A DNA stretch of 64,000 bases from the NCBI GenBank assembly GCA_010093605.1, contig MU004181.1, positions 806,001 to 870,000 on the forward strand. The letters are read 5' to 3'. Of this stretch, positions 3,276 through 33,734 are shown one piece after another; the first letter of the stretch is position 1, and every line of letters begins with the position of its first letter. Under the pieces are notes generated by a model. That model worked only from the letters and a program-made list of their open reading frames with translations, was not told the DNA's origin and searched no databases. Source of the DNA: Lophium mytilinum (Eukaryota > Ascomycota > Dothideomycetes > Mytilinidiales > Mytilinidiaceae). The position numbers and the translations under genes were made by a program.

Positions 3276-5211
3276 TAGAGAGAAGGGCACCCACGGCGTT
3301 CCTTGCTCGCGACAGATACATGCAATATAAACAGCAACTATCACTGTTCTTGAAATGTATGCCTTGACAGCTGATACTAACCCAATGGATACTGCCGTAT
3401 GTCAGTCGCTTTGAATAACGATCAATGCAGGTATAGTGCGGCGGATGGGTCCGAACACGTCCTCTATCCATCTCACGTGTGAGCTTACCAATCTTTCATC
3501 CACGACTATAAGAGCTTTCCCTGCTTGCCTTTTGTTCTCCAGGAAAGTCCACCCTTCAACTCGGTACAAAATCGAGGAACCAATTCCTCATGGAAATCGG
3601 GGGCATTGGGGCTTGAGTTTCAAACAGTGTCGACAGATGGCATCAATGCAGTACATGTGTTCGCGCATCCTCAATGTGGAGGAGTAAAGCTCGATCTTGC
3701 AACAAAGGACCGCGGTACGGATTATGGTGGAGTGTGAAATGTGTGGGGCCGAGTTAGCGGTTGATGATGAAGAAAGTCGAAATTTTGAAATATAGGTAGG
3801 AGGCAGCACCGTTCGAAGATCTTGATAATACAAATCTTTCAATGCGTTACGGCAAGCCACGGTGAGACGAGATAATAAGGGATATTGCCGATGTCTAGCA
3901 CCTCCTAAAGACGATGAGCATCGAACCAAACTCGAGACCGCAACATACCCGCTCCAGTCCATCAGCAGCTTGCGGATGAGTCGTTGAACTTCATCCCAAA
4001 TTGCAGCGACTCCATTCTTAACGATATCAAGATCGTTTTGATCCCTACCCCAATCTCCCACCGCCACATCAGAAGTCTCCACCTCGATGTTAATCCAACA
4101 ACATTGCTCGACTAGTCGCACTGGTTTACTCCCCCACAGCAACATGCAAGACCGCAAGGAGCGTATCCTTTTCTCGCGAGTGGAAGGTTTTATTACCCCA
4201 TCTTGCACCCCTACCACATGAACTCCCACCACTCCCTTGACTCGGCGCGAAGGCTCGACGGCGAGGACTCGATCACGAGACTGAGCCCAGCCCACGTGCA
4301 ACCAACGTGACAAACCTTGCTGAAGGATATGAAACCTTCTGCCTTGCCTTCAGTTGAAGACATGAAGGAGAAAGCAGTGCACTTGGGGTTCTCTGGCTTG
4401 TGTGAATTCTCTGACTTGTGTGAAAGATGTGCACATGGATCCTGGTGGTGTGTGGTAGAGGGGATCAAATGATTCTCACTCGAGCTTCATGGTGTCTGCA
4501 AACTCGGGGTGAGTGTATGGATTAGGGCAAACGTGTGAATGTGATCGGTGATGCTGTTAAGCAAGGGAATAAAACGATGGAGGATATGGGTATCTCAGTT
4601 TGAAAAGAGATGGCAGGTAAATCGTAGAGATGAGGCTTTATGTATCGTGAGTACAGGTCGGAGGCACTCACCATCACTACTATCAACTTCAGCGACTCGT
4701 TCAAGTTCTCGCGCCAAGATGGTTTTGATCCCACCCAGCCAACCACCACCACATGAAAATATTGTGCCTAATTCACCCCCCTGAGCAGAAGATTCCAAAT
4801 TCGTCTCAAACTTGATTGAACAATGCCATTCTAGTCATGTCGCATCATCAGTACGCTCGAGAACATGAAAGTGCCTTAGCATTTCATAGCTGTTATGAAT
4901 GAGATGCAGAAGCTGTAGGGCGTACTTTCGATATGTGATAAATCTCGGGCCGTGCGTTTCTCCGACGCCTAACCCGATTCAATCAGCGAATCAATTCACC
5001 TCAGAGAAACGACCTGTCCGACTGAGCACTCTCTGCGCGGCTAGCAATCGGAATCTGCTGCGGACTTTTAGTACATCCAATTAATACGACGAGGGAAACG
5101 CTGCTCGAAACGCGACAGGACAACCGCGGGCTTGTGCATCTTGCTCCTCCAGCCCCATCAGTTATCCGCCTTGCATGCGGCGCTGCTAGCTGTGCCGAGT
5201 CCGCCACAACG
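3276..5211. other. Intergenic with promoter-like repeat modules
   Basis: About 1.9 kb without a gene I can support. It holds the first locus of paired CACGTG/TATA modules (3474 to about 4645, annotated separately). The remainder up to the coiled-coil gene shows nothing recognisable. Confidence 0.5.
3474..4645. repeat. Dispersed repeat with facing CACGTG/TATA modules, locus 1
   Basis: Four promoter-like modules can be read. Module 1 (+) has CACGTG at 3474-3479 and TATAAGA at 3507-3513. Module 2 (-) has TAATAAAA at 4188-4195 and CATGTG at 4215-4220. Module 3 (+) has CACGTG at 4293-4298 and TATGAAA at 4328-4334. A weak fourth (-) has a TACATAAAG-like box near 4637-4645. The spacings between the two boxes (27, 19 and 29 nt) match those of the corresponding modules at 36.6-38.5 kb (30, 19 and 29 nt), and a 20-bp string at 4292-4311 is identical to 37634-37653. 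The locus looks like a decayed copy of the one at 36.6 kb. No protein-coding gene is evident inside it. Confidence 0.5.
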
Positions 5212-18765: not shown

Positions 18766-19937
18766 ATGTCCGCGGCGGTGAAGAGTTCTGTCAAGGATGG
18801 GCAGACTGCTCCGTCCGACAAGCAGCAGGTTGCTAGCCAAGGAGCAAAGAGCTACAAAGGCTTCGTAGCTGGAGTCTTTTCTGGCATTGCCAAATTATCA
18901 GGTATGCAATGGCCGAACAGTTTTCTAGACTAAGCACTGACTGTACGCAGTTGGGCATCCGTAAGCTCACACCTCACTCAAACACGCTTCACGCTCCTAA
19001 ACCGTTACCCACAGCTTCGATACTATCAAGGTTCGCCTACAGACCACGGACAAGTCGCAGTTCAAGGGGCCCTGGGAGTGCTTGAGCCAGACGGTCAAAA
19101 ATGAGGGCATCAAGGGTTTATACAAGGGTGCCACTCCACCGCTAGTTGGATGGATGTTTATGGACTCGCTGTATGTTGATAGCAGACGCGTCAAAAGCAT
19201 GGACTAATGGCATGGATAGGATGCTGGGCTCCTTGAACGTATATCGACGCCTGTTGAACGACAATGTCTTCAATCCGCGGCGAGCCTCGGCCGACTCAAA
19301 CCTAGGACATAAGCATTTGCCAACCATAGGCCACGCAATGGCGGGAGTGATGGCAGGAGCCACTGTGAGCTTCATTGCGGGTCCCGTTGAGCATATCAAG
19401 GCACGATTGCAGGTGCAGTATCAAGTGGAGAAGTCGAAAAGGCTATATACAGGACCCATTGACTGCGTCAAGAAAATGGTAAATACCTCGGCGATTCAAT
19501 TAAGCATATTAGCTAACAATATGCTGTAGTTCGGCGGATATGGTATCAGAGGAATCTACCATGGTTTAACAGCCACTCTTATCTTCCGGACATTCTTCTT
19601 CTTCTGGTGGGGTAGCTACGATATTTTTACACGAGCGTTGAGAGAGAACACTCACCTATCAGCCCCGGCCATCAACTTTTGGGCTGGTGGCGTTTCTGCT
19701 CAGGTGTTCTGGTTAACATCATACCCGTCCGACGTGGTCAAACAGCGCATCATGACAGACCCACTTGGGCCCGAACGGAAGTTTCCGCGATGGAGAGATG
19801 CTGCTAAAGCCGTGTATAGGGAGAATGGCTGGAGAGGTTACTGGAGGGGCTTCACACCTTGCTTTTTAAGAGCGTTTCCAGCGAATGCGATGGCTTTGGT
19901 AGCGTTCGAAGCCGTGATGAGAGGATTGCCGGAGTGA
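18766..19937 (+). CDS. Mitochondrial carrier (SLC25 family)
   Basis: An inner mitochondrial membrane transporter, with substrate not assigned. Five exons, 18766-18901, 18951-18960, 19015-19170, 19220-19478 and 19530-19937, give 322 residues. Three carrier repeats are visible with their signatures: HPFDTIKVRLQ (repeat 1, created across the 10-nt second exon), GPVEHIKARLQV (repeat 2) and YPSDVVKQRIM (repeat 3), each followed by a KGLYKG/GIRGIYHG/GYWRGF-type motif. The 10-nt microexon TTGGGCATCC is required to keep the frame and restores the invariant VGHPFD. Skipping it would break the frame. The closest general type is the amino-acid/ornithine/carnitine branch that includes Ymc1-like proteins, but I would not name a substrate. 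All introns are about 50 nt. Confidence 0.92.
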
Positions 19938-20861: not shown

Positions 20862-23800
20862 ATGGCCTATCGCGGAAATGGTCGGGGTGGTTCAGGGCCT
20901 CAGCCCTGTTATCAATGCGGCAACCTAGGCCACTTCGCTCGTGAGTGTCCACAGAATAGCCGGGGTTTTCAGGGTGGAGGTCGCGGTCAAGGTGATTCAG
21001 TGCGTGGTCTAGCTTCGCGGGGCGGATTCCCACCAGGATGGCGTGGACCATCTACAGATCGAGGTGGCAGAGGCGGTTACCAAAGCGGTTCTAACGGTCG
21101 AGGCCGTGGCGCTCCAAATGGGCCATACGGTCGGCCAGGTTCTGTCAATCATGGGGCCTCAACTGATATCCCCTTGCAGCAACGTCCACCATTGGAATTC
21201 CCTCAGACCCCAAGCACATGGGCCGAGAAAATTGCGAAGCTTGAGAAGATCGAACTAGACCAACTAGCCTCATTCGAGATACCCACGGCACCAACGGGTG
21301 GTACACGCTTACCGCCCAAAACATTCGTCTTATCCAACAATCTCCAGACTTCCCTAGCGAAGGTCAAACAAGAGATGCAGGAGAACGAAGAGAATTTTGC
21401 TGTACACACCATTCGGCCCTCGTTCGTCACCGCAGGGTCAGAGAGACAATCATCAATGTTGACGAATCACTTTCAAGTCACGCTCCCGACCAAAACGCTC
21501 TATGAGTACGCTATCCATGGATTTCCAGATGACAAGACCCGTAGGGCTAAGAAGCACATCGTCCTCGATATGATAAAAAGCTGTCCTCTTTTGCAAGAGG
21601 ATAACTTTGTTACTGACTTTGATGGCACAGTTGTCTCATGGGTCAAATTGCATGATCAAGAGCCTAAGAAAGATGAACACGTTAAAGGCAGCCACTGCCT
21701 CGTAGAGAGGAGACCTACCAACCTCGACATGAGCCTGCAATTCAAAGGCGAAGTCAAATTTGACGCCCTACTTCAACATACCAAGAGCAGCACCAATCCC
21801 GAGCATCTCAAACTTGACGCAAATCCAATAGTGAAGGCTTTGAACATGCTCATCGCTGACAAATCTTTCTCGTCTGCCGTCGGTCTTGAGACTGTGCAAG
21901 TGGGAGCAAACAGGTTCTTCCTCAAATCCGGAGCCAGGGCTCTCAAGGGCAGGAATGACAGCACCGAGAGTCCGCTGTGTACCATTCGAGGATACAGCTT
22001 GAGCACCAAACCCGCGATGGGCAGTACTCTGGTCAACATCAACACCGTTACCAGTGCGTTCTTTCGGCCGATTCTAGTCAGCGAGTTCATGATGAACTAC
22101 AGCAAAGTGCTTGCTAAGACAGACGCAGAGCTCTACGAGCTTCTTGTGGGACGTCGCGTCTATATTCTCTATGAGCGCGGCGACCCGAAACTTGATGCTC
22201 CTGAGGGTAGAGTGAGGACTATCCAGCGTGTTGGCAGAGACACACCCGGTGCAACCAAGTTTATAAAGAAAGGCACAACAGAAGAAATCACGGTTCAAAA
22301 GAACGTCGAAGAAAGTAAGCTTGTCTCCTTGCCACAACGTCCATAACTTACCTATACAGAGTCGATGAAGAAGCTTCAGCATCCCCATCTATACTGTGTC
22401 AATCTTGGGGGAAAGGACGAAAAGAAAGAGGCATGGTTCCCTCCGGAATCCCTTCGATTATTGCCCTACCAGCCGTACAATCGATTGCTTCCTGCCAACT
22501 TGACTTCGGCCATGTTGGACGCAGCATGCCGCAAGCCCGAGGAGAATCGGCACGCAATCATCGAAGAGGGCCTGCCCGCACTTGGAATTGACCCTAGTGG
22601 GGCTGCCTCCCCTGCTGGTGACGACAGTCTCTTCAAGGTCGATCCGGCCATGCTATCGGTACCCTCGCGTATCTTGGCCAAGCCAACGATACTATACACC
22701 GAACGACAGGCAACCCCTAGCGATAGTGCCCGGTGGAGCCTAGAAAGCCAAAGATTCCTGAAAACCACAGACGACGAGATCAAAATGCATGTCATCTTAG
22801 AGGGTGATAATCACAGGAACAAGCTCATCTACCACGAGGCGGAATACGTTGAAAAACTCATCGAAAGCTTGAGGAGTTACGGTCTGAAGGTGGTAGATGA
22901 TTACAAGGATACTTCGAAAAGCTGGCTTGGTTCTGGCAACTTCCTCGACAGCTTTCAACGTGAGCTTGACAAAGCAAAGAAAAACGGCTGCGACATTGTC
23001 TGCTTAGTTCTACGCAAAAAGAGCACCGATGTATACTCAGAGTTCAAAGTCATTGCGGACAGGGCGACGGGTGTGCACACGATCTGTCTGTGTGAGGATC
23101 GGTTGTTGAAGTTTGGCGGGGTGAAGAAAGATGTGATGGGACACCTCGCAAATGTCGCGATGAAGGTATGACTTTCTCCTCCATAAAGTGTCTTCTATGC
23201 TCTACTAAACCTATTAGGTCAATCTCAAATTTGGTGGCACCAATCATTCCGTGGCTGGCATCACGCCCTTTCTGAAGGATACCTTGGTACTCGGTGCAGA
23301 TGTCACACATCCCACAGGAGGCTCTGTCAATGGAACACCTTCTATTGCTGCAGTCGTTGGAAGCGTTGACGAAAATGGAGGCCGGATGTTAGGGTCCATG
23401 AGACTTCAACTTGAAGCAAGAAATGAAGTAAGTGCACCAGTCACCTCCGATTTATTGAAAGATTAGCAGACACTAATTCGTTGGGTACCAGATGATCGAC
23501 GAGATGGAATCGATGGTCAAAGACCGCCTCCATGCCTGGAAAGAGGCTAACGAGGGCAAGTGGCCACAGAACGTCCTGTACTATCGCGATGGTGTATCCG
23601 AATCCCAGTACTCGGCGGTCCGCAGAAAGGAGATCGGGGCAATTCGCGATGCTTTTGCAAACACCACTGACGTGAAGCCTCGCATCACGGCTGTGGTCGT
23701 AGCGAAGCGGCACGGAACTCGATTTTATCCCACTGACGATAAAGATCGAGTTCGTCATAATATGAACTGCCTTCCAGGAACGCTAGTAGAGAGCGGTGTC

Positions 23801-24295
23801 ACGTGAGTACACTTTACAATCCCAGAGAGTTTATCTGGGAGCAGCTATTGACGCGTACACAGGTCTCCGTATTACTTCGACTTCTACCTCCAAGCCCACA
23901 ACGGACTCCAGGGTACCGCAAGGCCTGCTCACTACTTCGTCCTCGAGAACGGCATGGATCTAAGCGCGAAGGACTTGCAGGATCTGGTAAACAGCCCCGA
24001 TCTCTACATCTCCCGATCTCCAATCATCTAACATCACACCCAGACATTCCGCCTCTGCTACACCTACGTCCGAGCCACCCTCGGCGTCTCGTACGCTCCC
24101 CCGGCTTACTACGCCGACCGGCTTTGCGAGCGCGGTCGCACGTATCTGAGAAACTACTTCAATGCGAAGCCACAGATGAGGGGCATGGACAAGGATACGA
24201 TTGATGCTGAGGCGAGAAGGTTGTGGGCTCGTGCGGGGAACAGTCGTGGTGATCCGTGGCATGAGAATCTTGACGATACGATGTTCTGGATGTGA
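20862..24295 (+). CDS. Argonaute with N-terminal CCHC zinc knuckle (copy 1)
   Basis: An RNA-guided silencing protein of the eukaryotic Argonaute family (QDE-2-like). Six exons, 20862-22314, 22360-23165, 23218-23427, 23492-23802, 23863-23986 and 24044-24295, give 1051 residues. Order: zinc knuckle C16-C19-H24-C29 (CX2CX4HX4C), an RGG/Gly-rich stretch to about 110, ArgoN from about 180, ArgoL1 near 375 (IRGYSLSTKPAMGSTLVNIN), PAZ about 400-540, MID about 690-755 (VYSEFK, then NVAMKVNLKFGG) and PIWI. Slicer residues: D781 (LGADVTHP), E823 (EARNE), D856 (YYRDGVSE) and D993 (AYYAD), a full D-E-D-D set. The MID glutamine (TQC in animals) is Ile here (TIC). The end DDTMFWM is shared with copy 3. It is first in a row of three on one strand. 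The RGG stretch may bind RNA or be arginine-methylated. The N-terminal knuckle is unusual. Confidence 0.95.
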
Positions 24296-25259
24296 AGGCG
24301 TTCGGGATGGCGTGTGGACGTGTTCTCGGCTAAAACGTGGGAAACTGGCAGCGTGGAGGAGAGGATGGAGGTTTGTTCTGATAATTTGGCCCATTTGAGG
24401 CTCTCGGAGGATGAGATGATTGAGGCGGCTCTGGGATAGAGATTTGTTTAATCCGGAGTCGAGTCTGATAGGTAATGGTGAAGAGGAGATCAAAGAGTGT
24501 ATAATTCAGAGGTCATGCTCGGATCCATAGCGTGGTAATTGTGCAAGCAATCATAGGTAATCTAGGTATGTGTTCAGGCTAAGCTACTCGTTTTCATTCA
24601 TACATTCACTCACTTCGCAATTGAATTCAAACAAGTTTCCAGCCCGTATAGTATACGGCTTTACTGACTGGTTGATGAGAAGCGCGCAATAGATTTCCTA
24701 GCGATTTCGACTGTAGGCAAAGAAGTGCTTTCGCGTTTTCAACGCAGCAAACGGAGCGCTTCGCCAGCTGACCCTGTATCAAACGACGCCCTGCCAGTAA
24801 GCCTCTTACGCCGCGGCCTTGTTGTCTGACGTCTTTCAACGTGTTTCCAAAGCGCATACCAACCGTGAGTTTCCTATCTTTACCCTAACGAATCAGATGC
24901 TAATGCGTGCAGGTAAATTTGCCTATAATGCGGGCTTGCTCCGAGCTTCACTAAGAAACACTTGAAGCAAGCCCCGTGTTTTTTCCACGGATTTCTGCTT
25001 TGCCTTCTCAAACATCACGTTTTTTTCCCGGTTGCGCCCAACAATCAAGCCTTGCTCTCCTAGAGAGTTTTCTGCATTGGCTCATCAAACGTCAAGCTCC
25101 AAGTCGGGCCTTTCGATATAAAGACACGAGCATTGAGCCGCTCGGAGTCTTTAGATTAGAACTTCGTCATCATTGAAAGCTCACCGACGGATTTGTTTTT
25201 GATTACCTTCATTCAAGACTCCACTCCCACAAGACATCGCTCACCCCAGATCGACTCCC
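24296..25259. other. Intergenic between Argonaute copies 1 and 2
   Basis: About 960 bases. A GATATAAAG box near 25108 could serve copy 2. I see no further Argonaute fragment or other gene. Confidence 0.5.
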
Positions 25260-28200
25260 ATGGCTCGGAAAAAAGGGATTGCCAAGCCCAACGATGACAA
25301 CTCAAGGTTGCTACGCGAAGGTATGAGGAAGACCTGGGATAAATCTCCATGCTTCAGGTGTAACAACGCGAGCCACCCTTCCAACCAATGCAGTGCAAAT
25401 GCCGATGCCACAACCTTCTTTGCCGAAAAGGACGGCGCCGTCGATACTGTCCACAAGAAAGAAGCAGATGAATGGTTCAAGACCTACGTTCTCAAGAATA
25501 AGGATGGGAAGTTTCCGCCGGAGGTAGCGCCCTCGATAAATACCCCAGCCGCTGCTGGTTTGTCTTCCACGTTACCGATTCGTGGATCCGGGAATGTTTC
25601 ACAGCAGACGTTCGGAGGAGCTTCTGCGAATGTATCAAGCCAGAGCCAGACACGTGTTCAGCAGCCCGATGAACCTCTTTTGTATGAGGAGTTTACCAAG
25701 GGGCGTTGGGAACGAGAAGATCCCATCACAAGGGGTGAAGGGCCGAAGGGTAATGAGCCATACGCAGGGGGAACTCATATTATCGAGCAGCCAAAGAACC
25801 CAAACAGAATAGGGGAAATCGTCAGAGTCATCGCGAATCACCTTCTCATTGAGAAGGTTCCAGAGTTGCTTAACGAGTATTCTATCGATTACAATCCGAC
25901 CAAAGGCCGCGTTGAAAAGCGAAGAATTTTCAATGCTTTGTTGGACTCGAAACTATTGGACCTGGACGGACTTGCTTGGGCCACTGATCATGAGAGACTG
26001 TGGATCAAAGATAAGACTCTTCCAAAAGAGTTAAAAGAGTTTTTGGATTTTCCATATACGAAGCCAAGCGGAAAGGAGGGAACAATGATCAGTGTGAACT
26101 TTAACTTCGACCGGGAAATCAAACCAAGAGACCTTCAAGATTCTGCAAAAAACGCCGAATTCCAGACGCAGACCACCACTATTCGAGCGCTGAATGCGAT
26201 CGTTTCTCGAAAGCTTGTTGAAGAGATGTTCACCAACAAGGACCAGCCAACTTTAAAGGGCATTACAATGACGAAAGCGAACAAATGTTTTATCAACAAT
26301 GGCATCAGCCCTCTCAAAGGAAGAGGCCTCGTTGCCGTTCGAGGATACTTCTTTTCCGTCCGGCCTGGAGAAAAGAATACTCTGCTGAACATCAATACCG
26401 CGACCTCTGCCTTCTTGTCGCCAATTCTGGTATCTCATTTCCTTCAATTGACCGGGAACAATAAAGCAGCAGCTGAAAAGCTTCTCAAAGGCGCGAAGCT
26501 CAGAGTGACTTACAACCGGATGGACAAGGCCGACGATTCTATCAAGGGTAGCCGGAACGATGAAGTGAACCGGGGAAAGATCTTTCGCCAGTTCGGTAAA
26601 GCGGCCCAAGATCAGGATTATTATATCGGAGAGAAGGGATCAAAGACACTAGGTGGGAAGGTCCTCGACTACTTCAAAGGTACGAATACGAAGACCGCTG
26701 TGCAAACCTGTCCTTGCAATTGGCTAATTCTGCTGGTTAGATTTGGGAGTGTCCGTAACCTCCGGATGTGCCTGTGTCAATGTTGGGCCTTTTTTTGATC
26801 CCGACGATAACGACGCAGCGAAAAACGCAGTCTGGGTTCCCGCTGAATGCCTCGAGATCCTACCAATGAACCCGGTCAAAACCACATTGGATACCGACCA
26901 TACTTCAGCAATGATGAACGTCGCAAATCGAGAGCCGGCAAAGAATGCCCGTCTGATTGTGAAAGAAGGCATCCGGCGCCTTGGAATCGACCAAAAGGAT
27001 GAACTAGTAAGTACAAGACCATTCACCTCAATCTCTGACTTGACTAAGCTTGAACACACATACTAACAAGCCGTAGGAAGACATCGGTTTCTCGATCCGT
27101 CCTGAACCTATCGAATTCGACGCTCGAATCCTTCCGCCGCCACAGTTATATTACAACGTCAACGGGCGCATCCGCTCGGTGGATCCCAAATTTGCAGCAT
27201 GGAATCTGAAGGGCGTCAGGTTCCAAGGGGCGGGGGTTGCAACAGCCTTGCACGTGGTGCACGTAAATGGTGGTCAAGAAAACCTTAAGCCATGCGAACC
27301 AGAGAGCCTCGGTCATTGGCTTCAAGAGAGTATGAAGGGACATGGAATGAAGATCCCTGGTACTTTCGACAAGAAAAAGGTGCATCACTTGTACGCTGAG
27401 GGCTCAACAAAATTCGCAAATTCTTTCCAGGATCTTTTGAGGTCTTTCGATGAGAAGGCTGTAACTTTGGTCATTCTACCTTCCCCAGATCAGCAACTCT
27501 ACAGCACGATAAAGCGCATAGGCGACACCAGTGGCGTTATAACTGTATGTTGCCAGAACGATAAGTACGACACGCAGACACTACGGGACAGGAAGCCATT
27601 GGGCAGACCGCCGCAAGACCCTAAAGATGCGCTGGAGCAACAACTCTCCAATCTCTCGCTCAAATTCAATCTCAAACTGGGGAAGGACACGCACCATTTT
27701 GACTCACATTTCATCAGAGACATGGATGGCACGATCATCATGGGCGCAGACGTCGGACACCCTCCTGTCGGAGGACCCGCGGCAAGCCCGTCTATCGCTG
27801 CGTTGGTCGCGAGCATCGACGGTAACATGATGAATTATCCAGCATCCATACGTCTGCAAGCGGGACGACAAGAGGTAAGCCTAAAGCTAGATTCTATGTT
27901 TCACATCGCTCACTATATTCAGACAATAGAAGATCTTCGCGGCATGGTCTCGGAGCGCCTCCGTGCTTGGAGAGAGAACAACAATAATAGCCTCCCTGAC
28001 CAAATCGTGTTCGTAAGTTAGCTCGACCAGGTTTTTATTCAAGATGATCTCTTACATTGACATCAGTTCCGAGATGGTGTGGCCGAAAATCAATTTGCAG
28101 ATATCAAGGAGAGAGAGGTAAAGGCCATCAAAATGGCTTACGATGATCTGAACGTCTCGAACCAGGCATATGCCGTCACATTCATCGTAGTCGGCAAGCG

Positions 28201-28848
28201 GCATCATACTCGGTTTTATCCCAAGCACTCAACAGACGCGACAAAAAATGGAAACTTGAGGCCAGGTCTCGTGGTTGATTCTGTTGTCACGACGCCAGGC
28301 CAGCAGGATTTCTTTTGTCAGGCACATGCAGCTATAAAAGGTACGGCTAGGTCCGCTCACTATCATATACTAGTGGATGAGATAAATTGGACCTTCGATG
28401 TCCATCAAGAAGTTGTAAGATACCGCGATTTCTTGTTCAATCTCCATGAATCTAACACCGTCAGGCCCACAAACTCTCCTATGCCTTTTCCCGCGCAACT
28501 AAAGGTGTCTCGTATTGCGCTCCTGCGTACCTTGCGGATCGTCTCTGCGAGCGCGGCCGTTGTTATTTGAGAGCATGGAAGCCGGGACCATCCTACGACA
28601 TACCCAAGCACAAGGAGCTCATTGACTGGTACAACAATGTCAAGCGGCAAGATCCAAAGCCAATGGGCAGGACTGTGAAGACAGGCGCCAAAGGAGAGGA
28701 ATTCCCAATCCTTACAAAAGTGGGGATGCAAACGTGGAGGAAAGAAATGGCTGCTCGATTAGCTAGGAGCACTGATTGGAATCCGAATGGAGCAGCCAGA
28801 ACGAATCCTTGGGACGCAAAGTTTGATAAAGTCATGTTCTGGATCTAA
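25260..28848 (+). CDS. Argonaute with N-terminal CCHC zinc knuckle (copy 2)
   Basis: Six exons, 25260-26679, 26741-27006, 27077-27874, 27923-28012, 28067-28414 and 28465-28848, give 1101 residues. A CCHC knuckle lies at C31-C34-H39-C44. ArgoN begins near residue 180 (EIVRVIANHLLIEKVPELL), ArgoL1 near 360 (VAVRGYFFSVRPGEKNTLLN), followed by PAZ, MID (QLYSTIKRIGD, TVC in place of TQC, LKFNLKLG) and PIWI. Slicer residues: D787 (GADVGHP), E828 (GRQE), D861 (FRDGVAE) and D999 (AYLAD). There is no RGG stretch, unlike copy 1. The C-terminal part carries a basic insertion of about 60 residues before the conserved end VMFWI. Three intron positions are shared with the other copies, while the one before FRDG is unique. 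Sequence divergence from copies 1 and 3 is large, so the duplication is old. Confidence 0.95.
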
Positions 28849-29205
28849 CGGAGCTGGGAATTGGCGCTGAGCATCGTTCACCACCTATTCAACTAGGTGT
28901 GCCCAGGAGAGGATCGGGGTCCTCCATGTATCAGTCGAGTTTGGTTGGAGGTTCTGATGTGACAGTGACACAAGAGACCAATGTAGGGCATTTGGTCCTT
29001 TTGTAGCTTGCTGAAGGTTCAGCACCGCATGATAGTAGCTAGATGTTGGAGAAGCGATAATTACGTTGGTGTTCATGTTTTGAACTCTTCTCTCACAAAA
29101 CTCTTCGTACTCTAGACATGTGCACGAGTAGTACATTATGCTCACGGGACATAGGTTTGCATGCAAGCTATGTCGGACATTTCCTGCCGAGTTTGGCTCT
29201 CCTGA

Positions 29206-29406
29206 AGCATCACAGTTTGCACTTATTGCCGAGCTACGGTCGGAATTTCATACGCTTCGCCATCGTACTACGCTGACAGGCATTGTGAACGGGGTAAGGC
29301 ATATCTGAGGAGGTGGTTAGTTCAGGGTGAACTGGGACAGCTACCTGCAAATGCTGATATCGACATGTCGATAGACGCGCATGCACGGGGAATGTTTGGA
29401 ACCTGA
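29206..29406 (+). pseudogene. Argonaute C-terminal exon relic
   Basis: In one frame from 29218 it reads TYCRATVGISYASPSYYAD followed by RHCERGKAYLRRW. This matches the last exon of copy 1 (TYVRATLGVSYAPPAYYAD, then RLCERGRTYLRNY) at 22 of 32 positions, including the final catalytic Asp. It runs on about 30 codons to a stop at 29404-29406 without the usual MFWM end. CACAG at about 29211-29215 may be the remains of the splice acceptor. No PIWI, MID or PAZ sequence is found upstream, so this is a fragment of a fourth Argonaute rather than a gene. Confidence 0.75.
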
Positions 29407-29645
29407 ATAGATATCGGTATCAAATTCTCTTCCTTGAAGAATTCAGACCTTAGTAGCAACGTTGAATCGCTGGGTGCCCTCATGTGACGTAATACTTTCT
29501 AGCTCTAGCGATCCCGCACAGACTCCGACTCCCACGTCCCCACGTCCCCTATCCCGCTCCATCCCGACATTTTACACTTAATTCTTTCAGCCTCAGACCC
29601 CTTGACTTTGGGATTCTGGGTTAGCACTCATTATTTATTCGATCG

Positions 29646-29834
29646 ATGAAGTATTCTAGTTCACGTGCTGCTAACAATTCCAGCCAACGCCCAAGAATAT
29701 GTTATTTCTGCAAGATAATTCGCCAGACACGTTCAAATTGCCTCAAGACCCAGTCATCGACTACTCGGAATTGCTATACCACCACAGATTTGATTCCTCT
29801 TGATTGGAGCAAGAGTGTGTCGAGCCTTTGCTAA
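29646..29834 (+). pseudogene. Possible zinc-knuckle relic of an Argonaute 5' end
   Basis: A 62-codon frame starts MKYSSSRAANNSSQ and contains CYFCKIIRQTRSNC. This keeps the CX2C and last C spacing of the CCHC knuckles of copies 1 and 2 but has Gln where His is needed (a one-base difference, CAG for CAC/CAT). The frame stops soon after. Given its place just upstream of copy 3, it may be the remains of an Argonaute N-terminal exon. The match is short and could be chance. Confidence 0.35.
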
Positions 29835-30350
29835 TGGCTCGCAAAAGGTTTTCGATCAAGGGGGGAGGGGGCAAATTCCTCGTACGCCAAAGCTTTTCGC
29901 ACGCAGCGAACTGTATAACGAGCCTGAAGCATATTTGGTATCCGGTTTGACAGATGGGAACTCCGAGAGGGCTCTTCCAATGCCAAATACACTGTGACCT
30001 CTCTCGCAACCGTTTGACGCTCAAGCGCGCCCTTCCAGAGGCGCTGCTGTTTTCTTCGACCCAAATAGACTACGAAACTGTCAAGCCCATTGCCTGTGAA
30101 TTGCGAAAAGAAAATCAGGTTGCTTGCTCGGTTTGTACATCTTGTCTAGCTCTTTCGATCAATCACCTGGACATGTGGTAGGCAACTGGGGCAGCTACGT
30201 TGATGGCTATATAACAGAGCATTCTTTCATCTTAAATGCTCCTCATCACGCTCGCCCTTTTCAGCGAAACTAGCTCATCAAAGCCAGCCTTCTTTCAATT
30301 TCTCAGCTTTCTTCGACTAGTCGAGCTTCTACCAGTATTTCCTCCTCAAT

Positions 30351-33300
30351 ATGGGAAAGAACAAGGGGGGTAAGGGGGGTAACCAGCGAGGTGGTTCTCA
30401 AAATGCCGCAGTAAATCTTTCAGACTATTTTGGAACCCGAGATAGGTTCGAAAAGAAGCTTCCAGGTCTTCAAAAACTCTTCGATCCTTCGAATTGCGAG
30501 ATTCATGTCGTTCGGCCTTCCTTCAACCGGCCGGTCCAGAACGAGCGTCACGCTGTCTATTCCAACCATTTCCAGGTCACTCTTCCCAAAGAGCAGCTCT
30601 ACCAGTACCACGTTGTTGGAATGGATCCGCCGCCCCCCGAGAAGAAGGACCAATCGAAGGAAGAAGAGCCACCAAACGATGGAAGCGACTCTGAGCAGCA
30701 GGGTGCATCAAAAGAAGAAGAATCACCAGCCGCTGGAAGTAACTCTGAGCAGCAGGGTGCGTCGACAGAAGACAAATCACCAAAAGAAGAAAGTGACTCT
30801 GAGCAGCAGGTTGCGTCAGAGGAACCTGAAGAGGAGTCCCTCTCCCGACGAGCCAAGAGACTTCTCCTAGACTCATTCATCAAGAAGTCCCCTGTTCTAA
30901 CGGCAGAGAAAGCTAATTTCGCAACGGACGACATGTCAGTCATCGTTGCCTGGAAGGACTTATCCGCAATCTATCAGAAAGATTCCGCAGAGGAGACCAT
31001 CCTGGAAGAACACGACGTCAAGCTCGGGTCGTCAAGCAAAGCACATACTTACAAGCTTCAGCTGAAGTTTATCGGTGAAGTCGATACGAAGTCGTTTCAA
31101 AAGATCTGTGCCGGAGATGTTTCGAAATTGCCATACGAGTTGTCGACGAAGAACACCGTTCCACACGCTCTCAATATCATCATATCACACGCAACGAGGA
31201 ATAACAAGGACCAGAGAGCCGAGAATTTCTCGGTAGGCGGGAAGAAGTGCTATCAAGTGAACACGAGGAAGCCATCGCATGGTCTAGAAATCTACAGCGG
31301 GTTCTTCTCCACGATCAAGACTTCAATGGGCACACCGTTGCTCAACGTGAACAGGACCACAGGCCTTTTCCTGCCGGGGAACAAGCGAGTCGACACCTTT
31401 GCGGCGGAGTACAAGGCTGGATGGCAGAAGGCACTCATCGGCACGAGGGTGGCTGTTCTTTATCAAAAGGTGAAAAAGGCAGAAGAAATTGCTAGACTTC
31501 ACCCTTCGAATCAGAATCTCTTCAAGGAGCGAACCATCAAAGGATTCGGCTTAATACCGTCAAAACAGACGTTCACGATGATTGACGCAGACAAAAATGA
31601 GACAGTTACATCTGTCAGGAAGTACCTGAAGGATAGTAAGTTTTCATCACTCACGAGTTAGGAAGAATGGCATTGACCAAGAACAGGGTACGAAATTGAT
31701 TTCACCGACAACCTTCCGTGCGTAGACTTAGGCTCGGGAAAGAAAGACGACCACGCCTGGTTTCCCGCTGATAAACTCGAGATTCTCCCATACCAGCCTT
31801 TTCGACTAGCCGCTCCACCCGATGTTACGTCTGACATGATAGCGCATGCACGCAAAAGCCCCGCTGAGAGTTGCATAGAGATCCTCGACAGTAAACTCAC
31901 ATTCCTGGGACTCCAAAATCGGAGTGACGGTACATCTCCTGTAAGCATATTAATCAATGTTCTGTTGTGTGCAGCATCTCACGAGATCAAGGTACCCGCC
32001 GACTTCGCCATAAAACCAGACATGGTCGCGATCCCCGTCAAGGTAATGAATGCGCCCAAGGTAACCTATGTTGATGCCAAAGGCCAGGAGAGCAAAGCCG
32101 CCGTCGAAGTAGGCGCATGGAATCTGAGCAATCAGAATCTTCTTTCCCCAGGCCGTCTCCGAGGCGACGTTTGGGTTGTCCATTCAAGCCCGGTTGATGC
32201 AGGTCAAGCCCAAAATTGGGGCAAAGCACTCTTCACAGAAATGAAGATTTACAAGATCAAAGTCCCAGCAGACACCAGAATCAGAACTATTGAGCTGCCT
32301 GATCTCAAGCGCAGTAACTTCGACGATGCGTTCAAACAAATACCTCAAGGGTCGCTGGTCATCTATCTAAACCCCGATAACAAAGCTCAACACGCTTCGA
32401 AGTTTGCGTATTCGAAGCAATGTGGAGATCAGACCTACGGACTGCAGACGATATGTCTCACTGCGGACAAAATGACAAAACTGGACAGCGGCGAGAGCAA
32501 AGCCAAATTCAAGGACTATATGGCCAACGCCATATTGAAAATCAACCTCAAGCTAGGAGGTTACAATCATAAAGTTGAACTGATAGGGTTCAATGCCAAT
32601 GGTCAGAATAAGAATTGGATGAAAGAGAGAAACAAGCTTGAGACCATGATCCTGGGCGCGGATGTTACCCATACAGGTCCTAAAGCTACGCCTAAGACCC
32701 CCTCTCTTGCCTCAGTTGTCGGCAGCGTCGAAGGTGACTTCGGGACGTACGGGGGGTCAATGAGGGCGCAAAGAGCCAACTCTGAGGTAAGTTTGAACCA
32801 AACATACTTGGGCCAAGTCGATTCTAAGTTTTAAACTAGCTTATTGCGGACTTCAAAGGAATGGTGATCGAGAGACTCCAAGCCTGGAGTAAGAGAAACG
32901 AGAACCGTTGGCCAAGCCAGATCCTCTATTACAGAGACGGCGTCGACGAAGGACAGTATTCCCAGGTTCGCAAAGAGGAGGTAGAAAAGATCAAGGATGC
33001 ATTCGCGGAATGCATCGAGCTTGATAAGAAGGAGCGCGAAATGAAGGAGGGCAAAGAGAAGAAGGGTAAAGGGAAGAAAGGCAAAGAGGAGACACCCGAA
33101 CCACCTAAGGTCACAGCCGTCATTGTCGCAAAGCGACATCATACACGCTTCTATCCTACGCAGGTCATGAATAAGGGTACCGGAGGGAATTGTGAACCAG
33201 GCACTGTTATCGATGTCGGGGTGACTGACCCCGTTTACTTCGACTTTTGTGAGTTCTTCTTCAGCGCCTCGCTTCAGTCCTACTTCACTACCCTTAGAAT

Positions 33301-33734
33301 GTAGTAAACTAACCTTCTTCACAGTCCTTCAGAGCCACGATGCAATTCAAGGGACCGCAAAGCCTTCGCATTACTTCGTCCTCAAGAACGAAATCGACCT
33401 GACAGCGGAACAACTACAGGAATTCGTAAGTTGATCTTCCTCGTACCCCGAGTAGCTCCCTAGTTCGAGACGCAATGCTCACCCAGTAACTTTAATCAAG
33501 ACATATCGCCTCTGTTACACGTATGTGAGAGCCACGAGAAGCGTATCATATGCGCCGCCTGCTTACTACGCTGATCGTCTTTGTGAGCGAGGCCGTAGTT
33601 ACTGCAAGGACTTCCTCGACGGAACTTATCGAAAGACGAGCAAGCAGTCGACAGACCACGCATGGAAAGAGGCATGGGGCCCCAACAAAAACCCTTGGCA
33701 CAAAAACCTCGACGATACTATGTTCTGGATGTAG
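30351..33734 (+). CDS. Argonaute without zinc knuckle (copy 3)
   Basis: Six exons, 30351-31635, 31687-31940, 31986-32786, 32840-33248, 33325-33425 and 33501-33734, give 1027 residues. The start MGKNKGGKGGNQRGG is Gly/Lys-rich and there is no knuckle. ArgoN (VYSNHFQVTLPKEQLYQYHV) is split by an acidic insertion with three 18-residue repeats around SEQQGAS (54-bp units, about 30660-30830). ArgoL1 (YSGFFSTIKTSMGTPLLNVN), PAZ (NLPCVDLGSGKKDDHAWFP) and MID follow. Slicer residues: D739 (GADVTHT), E780 (ANSE), D813 (YYRDGVDE) and D975 (AYYAD). A Lys-rich insertion (about 843-868) sits in PIWI. In MID the usual Tyr aligns with Phe and Gln with Ile. The third intron (31941-31985) would be only 45 nt and in frame without a stop; if retained, the protein gains 15 residues. 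Confidence 0.95.

Follow-up and report, generated by a model that had tools for sequence, protein, structure and literature searches.

The window analysed here, a stretch of 64,000 nucleotides (nt) of Lophium mytilinum DNA corresponding to C1:806001-870000 in a 43.18-Mb genome of 24 contigs, carries three Argonaute genes in close succession, AgoA, AgoB and AgoC, which raises the question whether they form a local expansion with a specialised silencing function or a set of ordinary fungal Argonautes that happen to be neighbours. The answer favoured here, with moderate confidence, is that these genes are functional and belong to an old, slicer-type Argonaute family that is centred on chromosome 1 (C1), is distinct from the QDE-2 type, and probably serves in defence. 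This family would comprise AgoA to AgoD, perhaps together with AgoE, and is characterised by intact genes with conservation of the catalytic residues and of most of those compared in MID, pairing of AgoA with AgoC and of AgoB with AgoD, a shared intron, and a zinc-knuckle motif near the N-terminus of some members.

Architecture and catalytic residues of the cluster

AgoA, AgoB and AgoC are intact, are all encoded on the + strand within 12.9 kb, and consist of six exons each (Table 1), with intergenic gaps of 964 nt between AgoA and AgoB and of 1502 nt between AgoB and AgoC. The introns are of the GT-AG type and measure 45-76 nt, the least certain being intron 2 of AgoC (31941-31985, 45 nt). 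The three spliced models provide full reading frames with 0 internal stops, and each start codon is the sole in-frame ATG downstream of the preceding stop. The original prediction of three complete Argonaute genes on the same strand is thereby borne out, as are its coordinates and the D-E-D-D set that it assigned to them, since all twelve catalytic residue numbers were recovered as predicted. The catalytic tetrad reads DEDD in AgoA, AgoB and AgoC, and DEDH in their paralogue AgoD.

The Pfam PIWI domain was unambiguous in all three proteins (250.4, 242.4, and 224.6 bits for AgoA, AgoB, and AgoC, respectively; cut-off 28.9). ArgoN exceeded its cut-off in AgoA and AgoB and fell slightly below it in AgoC (30.7 versus 30.9 bits), and ArgoL1 did so in AgoB and AgoC and fell slightly short in AgoA (20.3 versus 22). 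Of the full domain list that had been claimed for all three proteins, PIWI therefore holds throughout, but ArgoN in AgoC, ArgoL1 in AgoA, and PAZ in AgoA and AgoC are sub-cut-off, and PAZ in AgoB was not reported. In the MID domain, five positions were compared after alignment to human AGO3, which presumably take part in binding the guide 5' end. The tyrosine and three lysines among these are retained in AgoA, AgoB, and AgoD, phenylalanine replaces the tyrosine in AgoC, and the glutamine position is occupied by isoleucine or valine in AgoA to AgoD and by valine in QDE-2.

Relic pieces had also been predicted between the second and third gene; a single PIWI C-terminal fragment was found there, and no further pieces. 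Its best-matching part comprises 33 amino acids (aa) at 29221-29319, with the top score obtained with AgoA.

Table 1. Coordinates of the Argonaute genes, relics, and zinc-knuckle motifs (window positions unless a chromosome or contig is given).
Feature	Position	Strand	Description
AgoA	20862..24295	+	1051 aa; exons 20862-22314, 22360-23165, 23218-23427, 23492-23802, 23863-23986, 24044-24295; tetrad D781/E823/D856/D993
AgoA CCHC zinc knuckle (residues 15-31)	20904..20954, C1:826904-826954	+	Pfam zf-CCHC (PF00098) 28.3 bits, cut-off 20.8
AgoB	25260..28848	+	1101 aa; exons 25260-26679, 26741-27006, 27077-27874, 27923-28012, 28067-28414, 28465-28848; tetrad D787/E828/D861/D999; PAZ region strongly diverged
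AgoB CX2CX4HX4C motif (residues 31-44)	25350..25391	+	Zinc-knuckle spacing; without Pfam hit
Argonaute relic between AgoB and AgoC	29119..29388	+	PIWI C-terminus fragment; tblastn with AgoA 39% identity, E 2.8e-13
AgoC	30351..33734	+	1027 aa; exons 30351-31635, 31687-31940, 31986-32786, 32840-33248, 33325-33425, 33501-33734; tetrad D739/E780/D813/D975; without zinc knuckle
AgoD	C1 at 2.19 Mb, ~1.35 Mb from the trio		1122 aa, hand-built model
AgoE	C1 ~940.3-943.6 kb (L013:1762-5101), ~100 kb from the trio		1058 aa, hand-built model
AgoF	C12		Model without internal stop and without first exon
AgoG	C2		Model without internal stop
AgoH	C15		Model without internal stop and without first exon
RIP-mutated AgoF relic	~C1:1345-2004	-	AT-rich C1 end (L015 = C1:1-8000, GC 0.24); 66.6% identity to AgoF over 652 positions
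AgoG-type relic	C1 ~2120.5-2120.8 kb (L014 ~3966-4289)		Broken fragment; 84% DNA identity to AgoG, 336 aligned positions

Descent of the paralogues

The trio displays 30-35% identity over the full alignment and 39-50% in the MID-PIWI block. Maximum-likelihood trees were built from 305 MID-PIWI columns (11 sequences) and from 514 columns running from the PAZ end to PIWI (10 sequences); QDE-2, of which only the MID-PIWI part was seen, was left out of the latter, and AgoF and AgoH entered without their first exon. AgoA paired with AgoC (bootstrap 80 and 96 in the 305- and 514-column trees, respectively) and AgoB with AgoD (96 and 94). Grouping of the three neighbours to the exclusion of the other genes was rejected by the approximately unbiased (AU) test (p 0.016 on 305 columns and 0.049 on 514), with Shimodaira-Hasegawa (SH) p values of 0.046 and 0.137 that make the second alignment borderline, and sister relationships of AgoA with AgoB and of AgoB with AgoC were rejected as well (AU p < 0.001 on both alignments). 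The trio is strongly diverged, as had been predicted, but it is not a simple local trio; with AgoD located ~1.35 Mb away, the two pairs and the rejected monophyly point to an expansion that involves the chromosome at large no less than the three-gene array.

Orthology of AgoA, AgoB, and AgoC to QDE-2 was not found, QDE-2 joining AgoH and AgoF in the best tree (AgoH and QDE-2, 98; AgoF, AgoH, and QDE-2, 94; AgoF and AgoH in the 514-column tree, 98), so that the prediction that the trio are not ordinary QDE-2 orthologues is upheld by best trees in which AgoA to AgoD stand apart from QDE-2. QDE-2 of Neurospora crassa (PDB 2yhb), which acts in quelling, shares with AgoA to AgoC the MID-PIWI sequence (35-42% identity in the compared block), the fourth catalytic aspartate, and the MID lysines. 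It differs in its grouping with AgoH and AgoF, and AgoA to AgoD carry an intron that the latter two lack. AgoG joined human AGO3 and Arabidopsis AGO10 (97 and 99), and our guess is that it is of the SMS-2 type. The 514-column tree placed a division with a support of 75 between AgoA to AgoE on one side and AgoF, AgoG, AgoH, and the sequences from animals and plants on the other, and a clade of these five was not rejected (AU p 0.61 and 0.82).

The intron positions bear on the same issue. A phase-0 intron directly 3' of the catalytic glutamate codon is present in AgoA, AgoB, AgoC, and AgoD (4/4) and missing from every model of AgoE to AgoH (0/4), and this restriction favours a common ancestor of AgoA to AgoD. 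The phase-1 intron at the PAZ end is more widespread, being found in seven of the eight genes, AgoG excepted.

Synonymous sites in the PIWI block were saturated or nearly so in the five pairs compared, with proportions of synonymous differences (pS) of 0.75-0.85 and of nonsynonymous differences (pN) of 0.34-0.47, including the pairs AgoA-AgoC (pS 0.79, pN 0.34) and AgoB-AgoD (pS 0.78, pN 0.34), whose nonsynonymous divergence is thus moderate. Long frames would hardly have been kept open over such divergence otherwise, which argues for constraint. A recent tandem duplication is rejected by this near-saturation and by the longest cross-gene DNA match, which measures 97 nt at 75% (stretches shared by design between the compared segments being excluded). 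Duplication borne by a repeat was likewise rejected, as the AgoB-AgoC spacer matched only itself in the genome in a search that skipped simple repeats and very common words.

Argonaute complement, relics, and repeat-induced point mutation

A genome-wide PIWI search returned 16 places, which resolve into eight intact-looking Argonaute genes and two relics; a search with the AgoB protein gave 25 matches and added the AgoB-AgoC relic as the sole further locus. Five of the intact-looking genes (AgoA to AgoE) are located on C1, and so are all three relics. The expanded set and the relics substantiate the earlier suggestion of more past copies. The premise that ascomycetes usually have two dispersed Argonautes proved too low: a 2014 survey gives a mean of 2.66 per genome and a range of 1-7 for the Pezizomycotina (PMC4290597), and species with four genes are on record, including C. 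parasitica (PMC7648066). Other parts of the silencing machinery were detected as Dicer-dimer matches at two genomic loci and RNA-dependent RNA polymerase (RdRP) matches at four. No relative was found in the viral contigs that were scanned with AgoF as a query.

The most serious alternative holds that AgoA/AgoC and AgoB/AgoD are two standing class-level subfamilies, comparable to members of the sets of four reported for Z. tritici and S. nodorum, that they are neighbours by chance, and that nothing about them is lineage-specific. Both species belong to the Dothideomycetes. Four Argonautes have been reported for each of these (Z. tritici, PMC8303167; S. nodorum, PMC10792503), and the synonymous sites of the paralogues, at or near saturation, imply that the splits are old. 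Against this, eight intact-looking genes slightly exceed the surveyed range, and five of them share one chromosome. The alternative is considered possible, though clearly less probable than the C1-centred family. Z. tritici (Ago1-4) and C. parasitica share with the present genome the possession of more than the two Neurospora genes and of divergent paralogues; here, there are eight intact-looking genes, of which five share a chromosome and three are packed into 12.9 kb. Set against the surveyed range and the known four-gene sets, the count is high without being of a new kind. What is unusual is the side-by-side arrangement of deeply split paralogues, together with the knuckle, and the cluster may prove common in related fungi.

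AgoE is a candidate inactive paralogue, judged from its lost catalytic residues, altered MID pocket, and very long branch. Its catalytic positions read H759 first and T986 last, with D864 kept and the glutamate position ambiguous (V or S), and it retains one of the five MID positions. Its placement in the trees is unreliable because of a branch of 2.1-2.6 substitutions per site.

The relic at the C1 end carries the marks of repeat-induced point mutation (RIP). C to T or G to A changes account for 198 of its 218 substitutions relative to AgoF. C to T changes affected 50 of 56 CpA and 45 of 62 CpG sites versus 10 of 48 CpC and 8 of 38 CpT, and G to A changes affected all 30 TpG and 45 of 62 CpG sites versus 9 of 39 ApG and 1 of 28 GpG. 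The stretch has a GC content of 0.26 and a TpA/ApT ratio of 1.83, as compared to ratios of 0.57-0.71 for AgoA, AgoB, and AgoC. This context bias indicates that RIP acted on a duplicated QDE-2-type Argonaute, and RIP together with QDE-2-type genes fits a filamentous ascomycete. No trace of RIP was detected in AgoA, AgoB, or AgoC, whose RIP indices resemble those of the whole window; with a longest cross-gene match of 97 nt, these genes have diverged too far in DNA sequence to resemble repeats at present. Five divergent Argonautes thus persist on C1 in a genome where RIP destroyed a QDE-2-type duplicate. The AgoG-type relic displays no RIP-like bias (14 of 41 substitutions being C to T or G to A).

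The relics could also be read as signs of a decaying family, in which C1 copies are being lost, leaving a cluster of mostly dead genes and a few members that are still open, a notion to which the three C1 relics (between AgoB and AgoC, at ~2120 kb, and at ~1.3-2.0 kb) and AgoE, which evolves fast and is catalytically degenerate, lend some colour, but it is improbable, since AgoA to AgoD keep full frames and all four catalytic positions despite near-saturated synonymous sites, and only the AgoB-AgoC relic best matches genes of their type, the C1-end relic being a copy of AgoF and the 2120-kb relic one of AgoG.

The N-terminal zinc knuckle and the proposed function

AgoA carries a CCHC zinc knuckle that matches the Pfam zf-CCHC family above its cut-off and differs from it in sitting on an Argonaute; an RG/RGG-rich stretch comes after it. 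AgoB and AgoD (residues 20-33) contain CX2CX4HX4C motifs with the same spacing as that of AgoA. The motif occurs in three of the eight Argonautes, always within the first 45 residues, and was absent from the sequence examined of AgoC, AgoE, AgoF, AgoG, and AgoH (AgoF and AgoH as models without their first exon). In shuffled sequences of AgoA to AgoE it appeared anywhere in 1 or 2 per 20,000 each (AgoB, 1/20,000). A zinc-knuckle Argonaute was not described in the titles or abstract openings of the literature searched, which is weak evidence of absence. Another zinc knuckle was encountered at C2:2084318-2084365, in an open frame of 1031 codons ~12 kb from AgoG.

AgoA to AgoD are most likely guide-RNA-loaded slicers. 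They would be expressed, the MID pocket would hold the 5' end of a Dicer-made small RNA of 20-odd nt, and the PIWI tetrad would cleave complementary RNA, with the paralogues probably sharing defensive or regulatory tasks, divided according to the class of guide, their expression, or the target. The N-terminal knuckle of AgoA, and probably of AgoB and AgoD, may offer a second RNA contact that helps to hold the target or a guide precursor. Their likeliest role is a defensive one, directed at mycoviruses or at transcripts of transposons. This guess is preferred on the precedent of N. crassa QDE-2, agl2 of C. parasitica, and AGO1 of C. higginsianum, which act against mycoviruses (PMC7648066, PMC4890784). 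The specialisation against mobile elements or viruses that had been proposed for the trio is a reasonable guess.

Several observations weigh against this picture of a separate, defensive slicer family. The antiviral genes cited as precedent are of the QDE-2 type and are not orthologous to AgoA to AgoD. In the 305-column tree, AgoB and AgoD joined the QDE-2 group (support 39), and placing them with the QDE-2 type (AgoF, AgoH, and QDE-2) was not rejected (AU p 0.66; 0.19 on the alignment without QDE-2). AgoE joined AgoA and AgoC weakly (64 and 61), a clade of AgoA to AgoD appeared in neither best tree, and the tests left that clade unrejected rather than supported (AU p 0.29 and 0.53). The motifs of AgoB and AgoD gave no Pfam zf-CCHC hit at E 0.1 and may lack zinc binding. 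Moreover, PAZ scored 20.0 bits in AgoA and 20.6 bits in AgoC, below the Pfam cut-off of 28.8, and was not reported in AgoB at E 0.1. With PAZ weak in all three proteins and unrecognised by Pfam in AgoB, binding of the guide 3' end may differ. The PAZ-sized segment of AgoB scored 34.0 and 58.7 bits with paralogue profiles that included AgoD, the best shuffles reaching 2.4 and 5.0 (281 and 285 scored), but as these profiles take in the conserved L1 and L2 flanks, the scores denote homology of the region and not an intact pocket; a profile of AgoF, AgoG, and AgoH alone failed to recognise the segment (4.7 bits; best shuffle 10.5). An AlphaFold2 prediction for the first exon of AgoB, with those of AgoA and AgoC, was unusable (mean predicted local distance difference test score, pLDDT, 30.9; predicted template modelling score, pTM, 0.16).

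A bolder version of the C1-centred family, in which the zinc-knuckle lineage of AgoA to AgoD forms a dedicated defence arm, with the knuckle capturing RNA of viruses or transposons, slicing being divided among paralogues that differ in their guide pockets, and the catalytically dead, fast-evolving AgoE acting as decoy or regulator of the family, is regarded as rather unlikely. Argonaute specialisation is best known from plants, nematodes, and flies. The present gene set suggests an enlarged, perhaps specialised RNA-silencing toolkit, and should its members prove to be expressed and to bind distinct sets of small RNAs, this fungus would be an ascomycete in which Argonaute specialisation can be dissected by deletions. 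On the same proviso of expression and loading, a zinc knuckle at the N-terminus of an Argonaute would become testable.

Finally, a piece of a Mito_carr domain (Pfam, 36.9 bits) is located just upstream of the cluster, at window positions 19146-19529 on the + strand.

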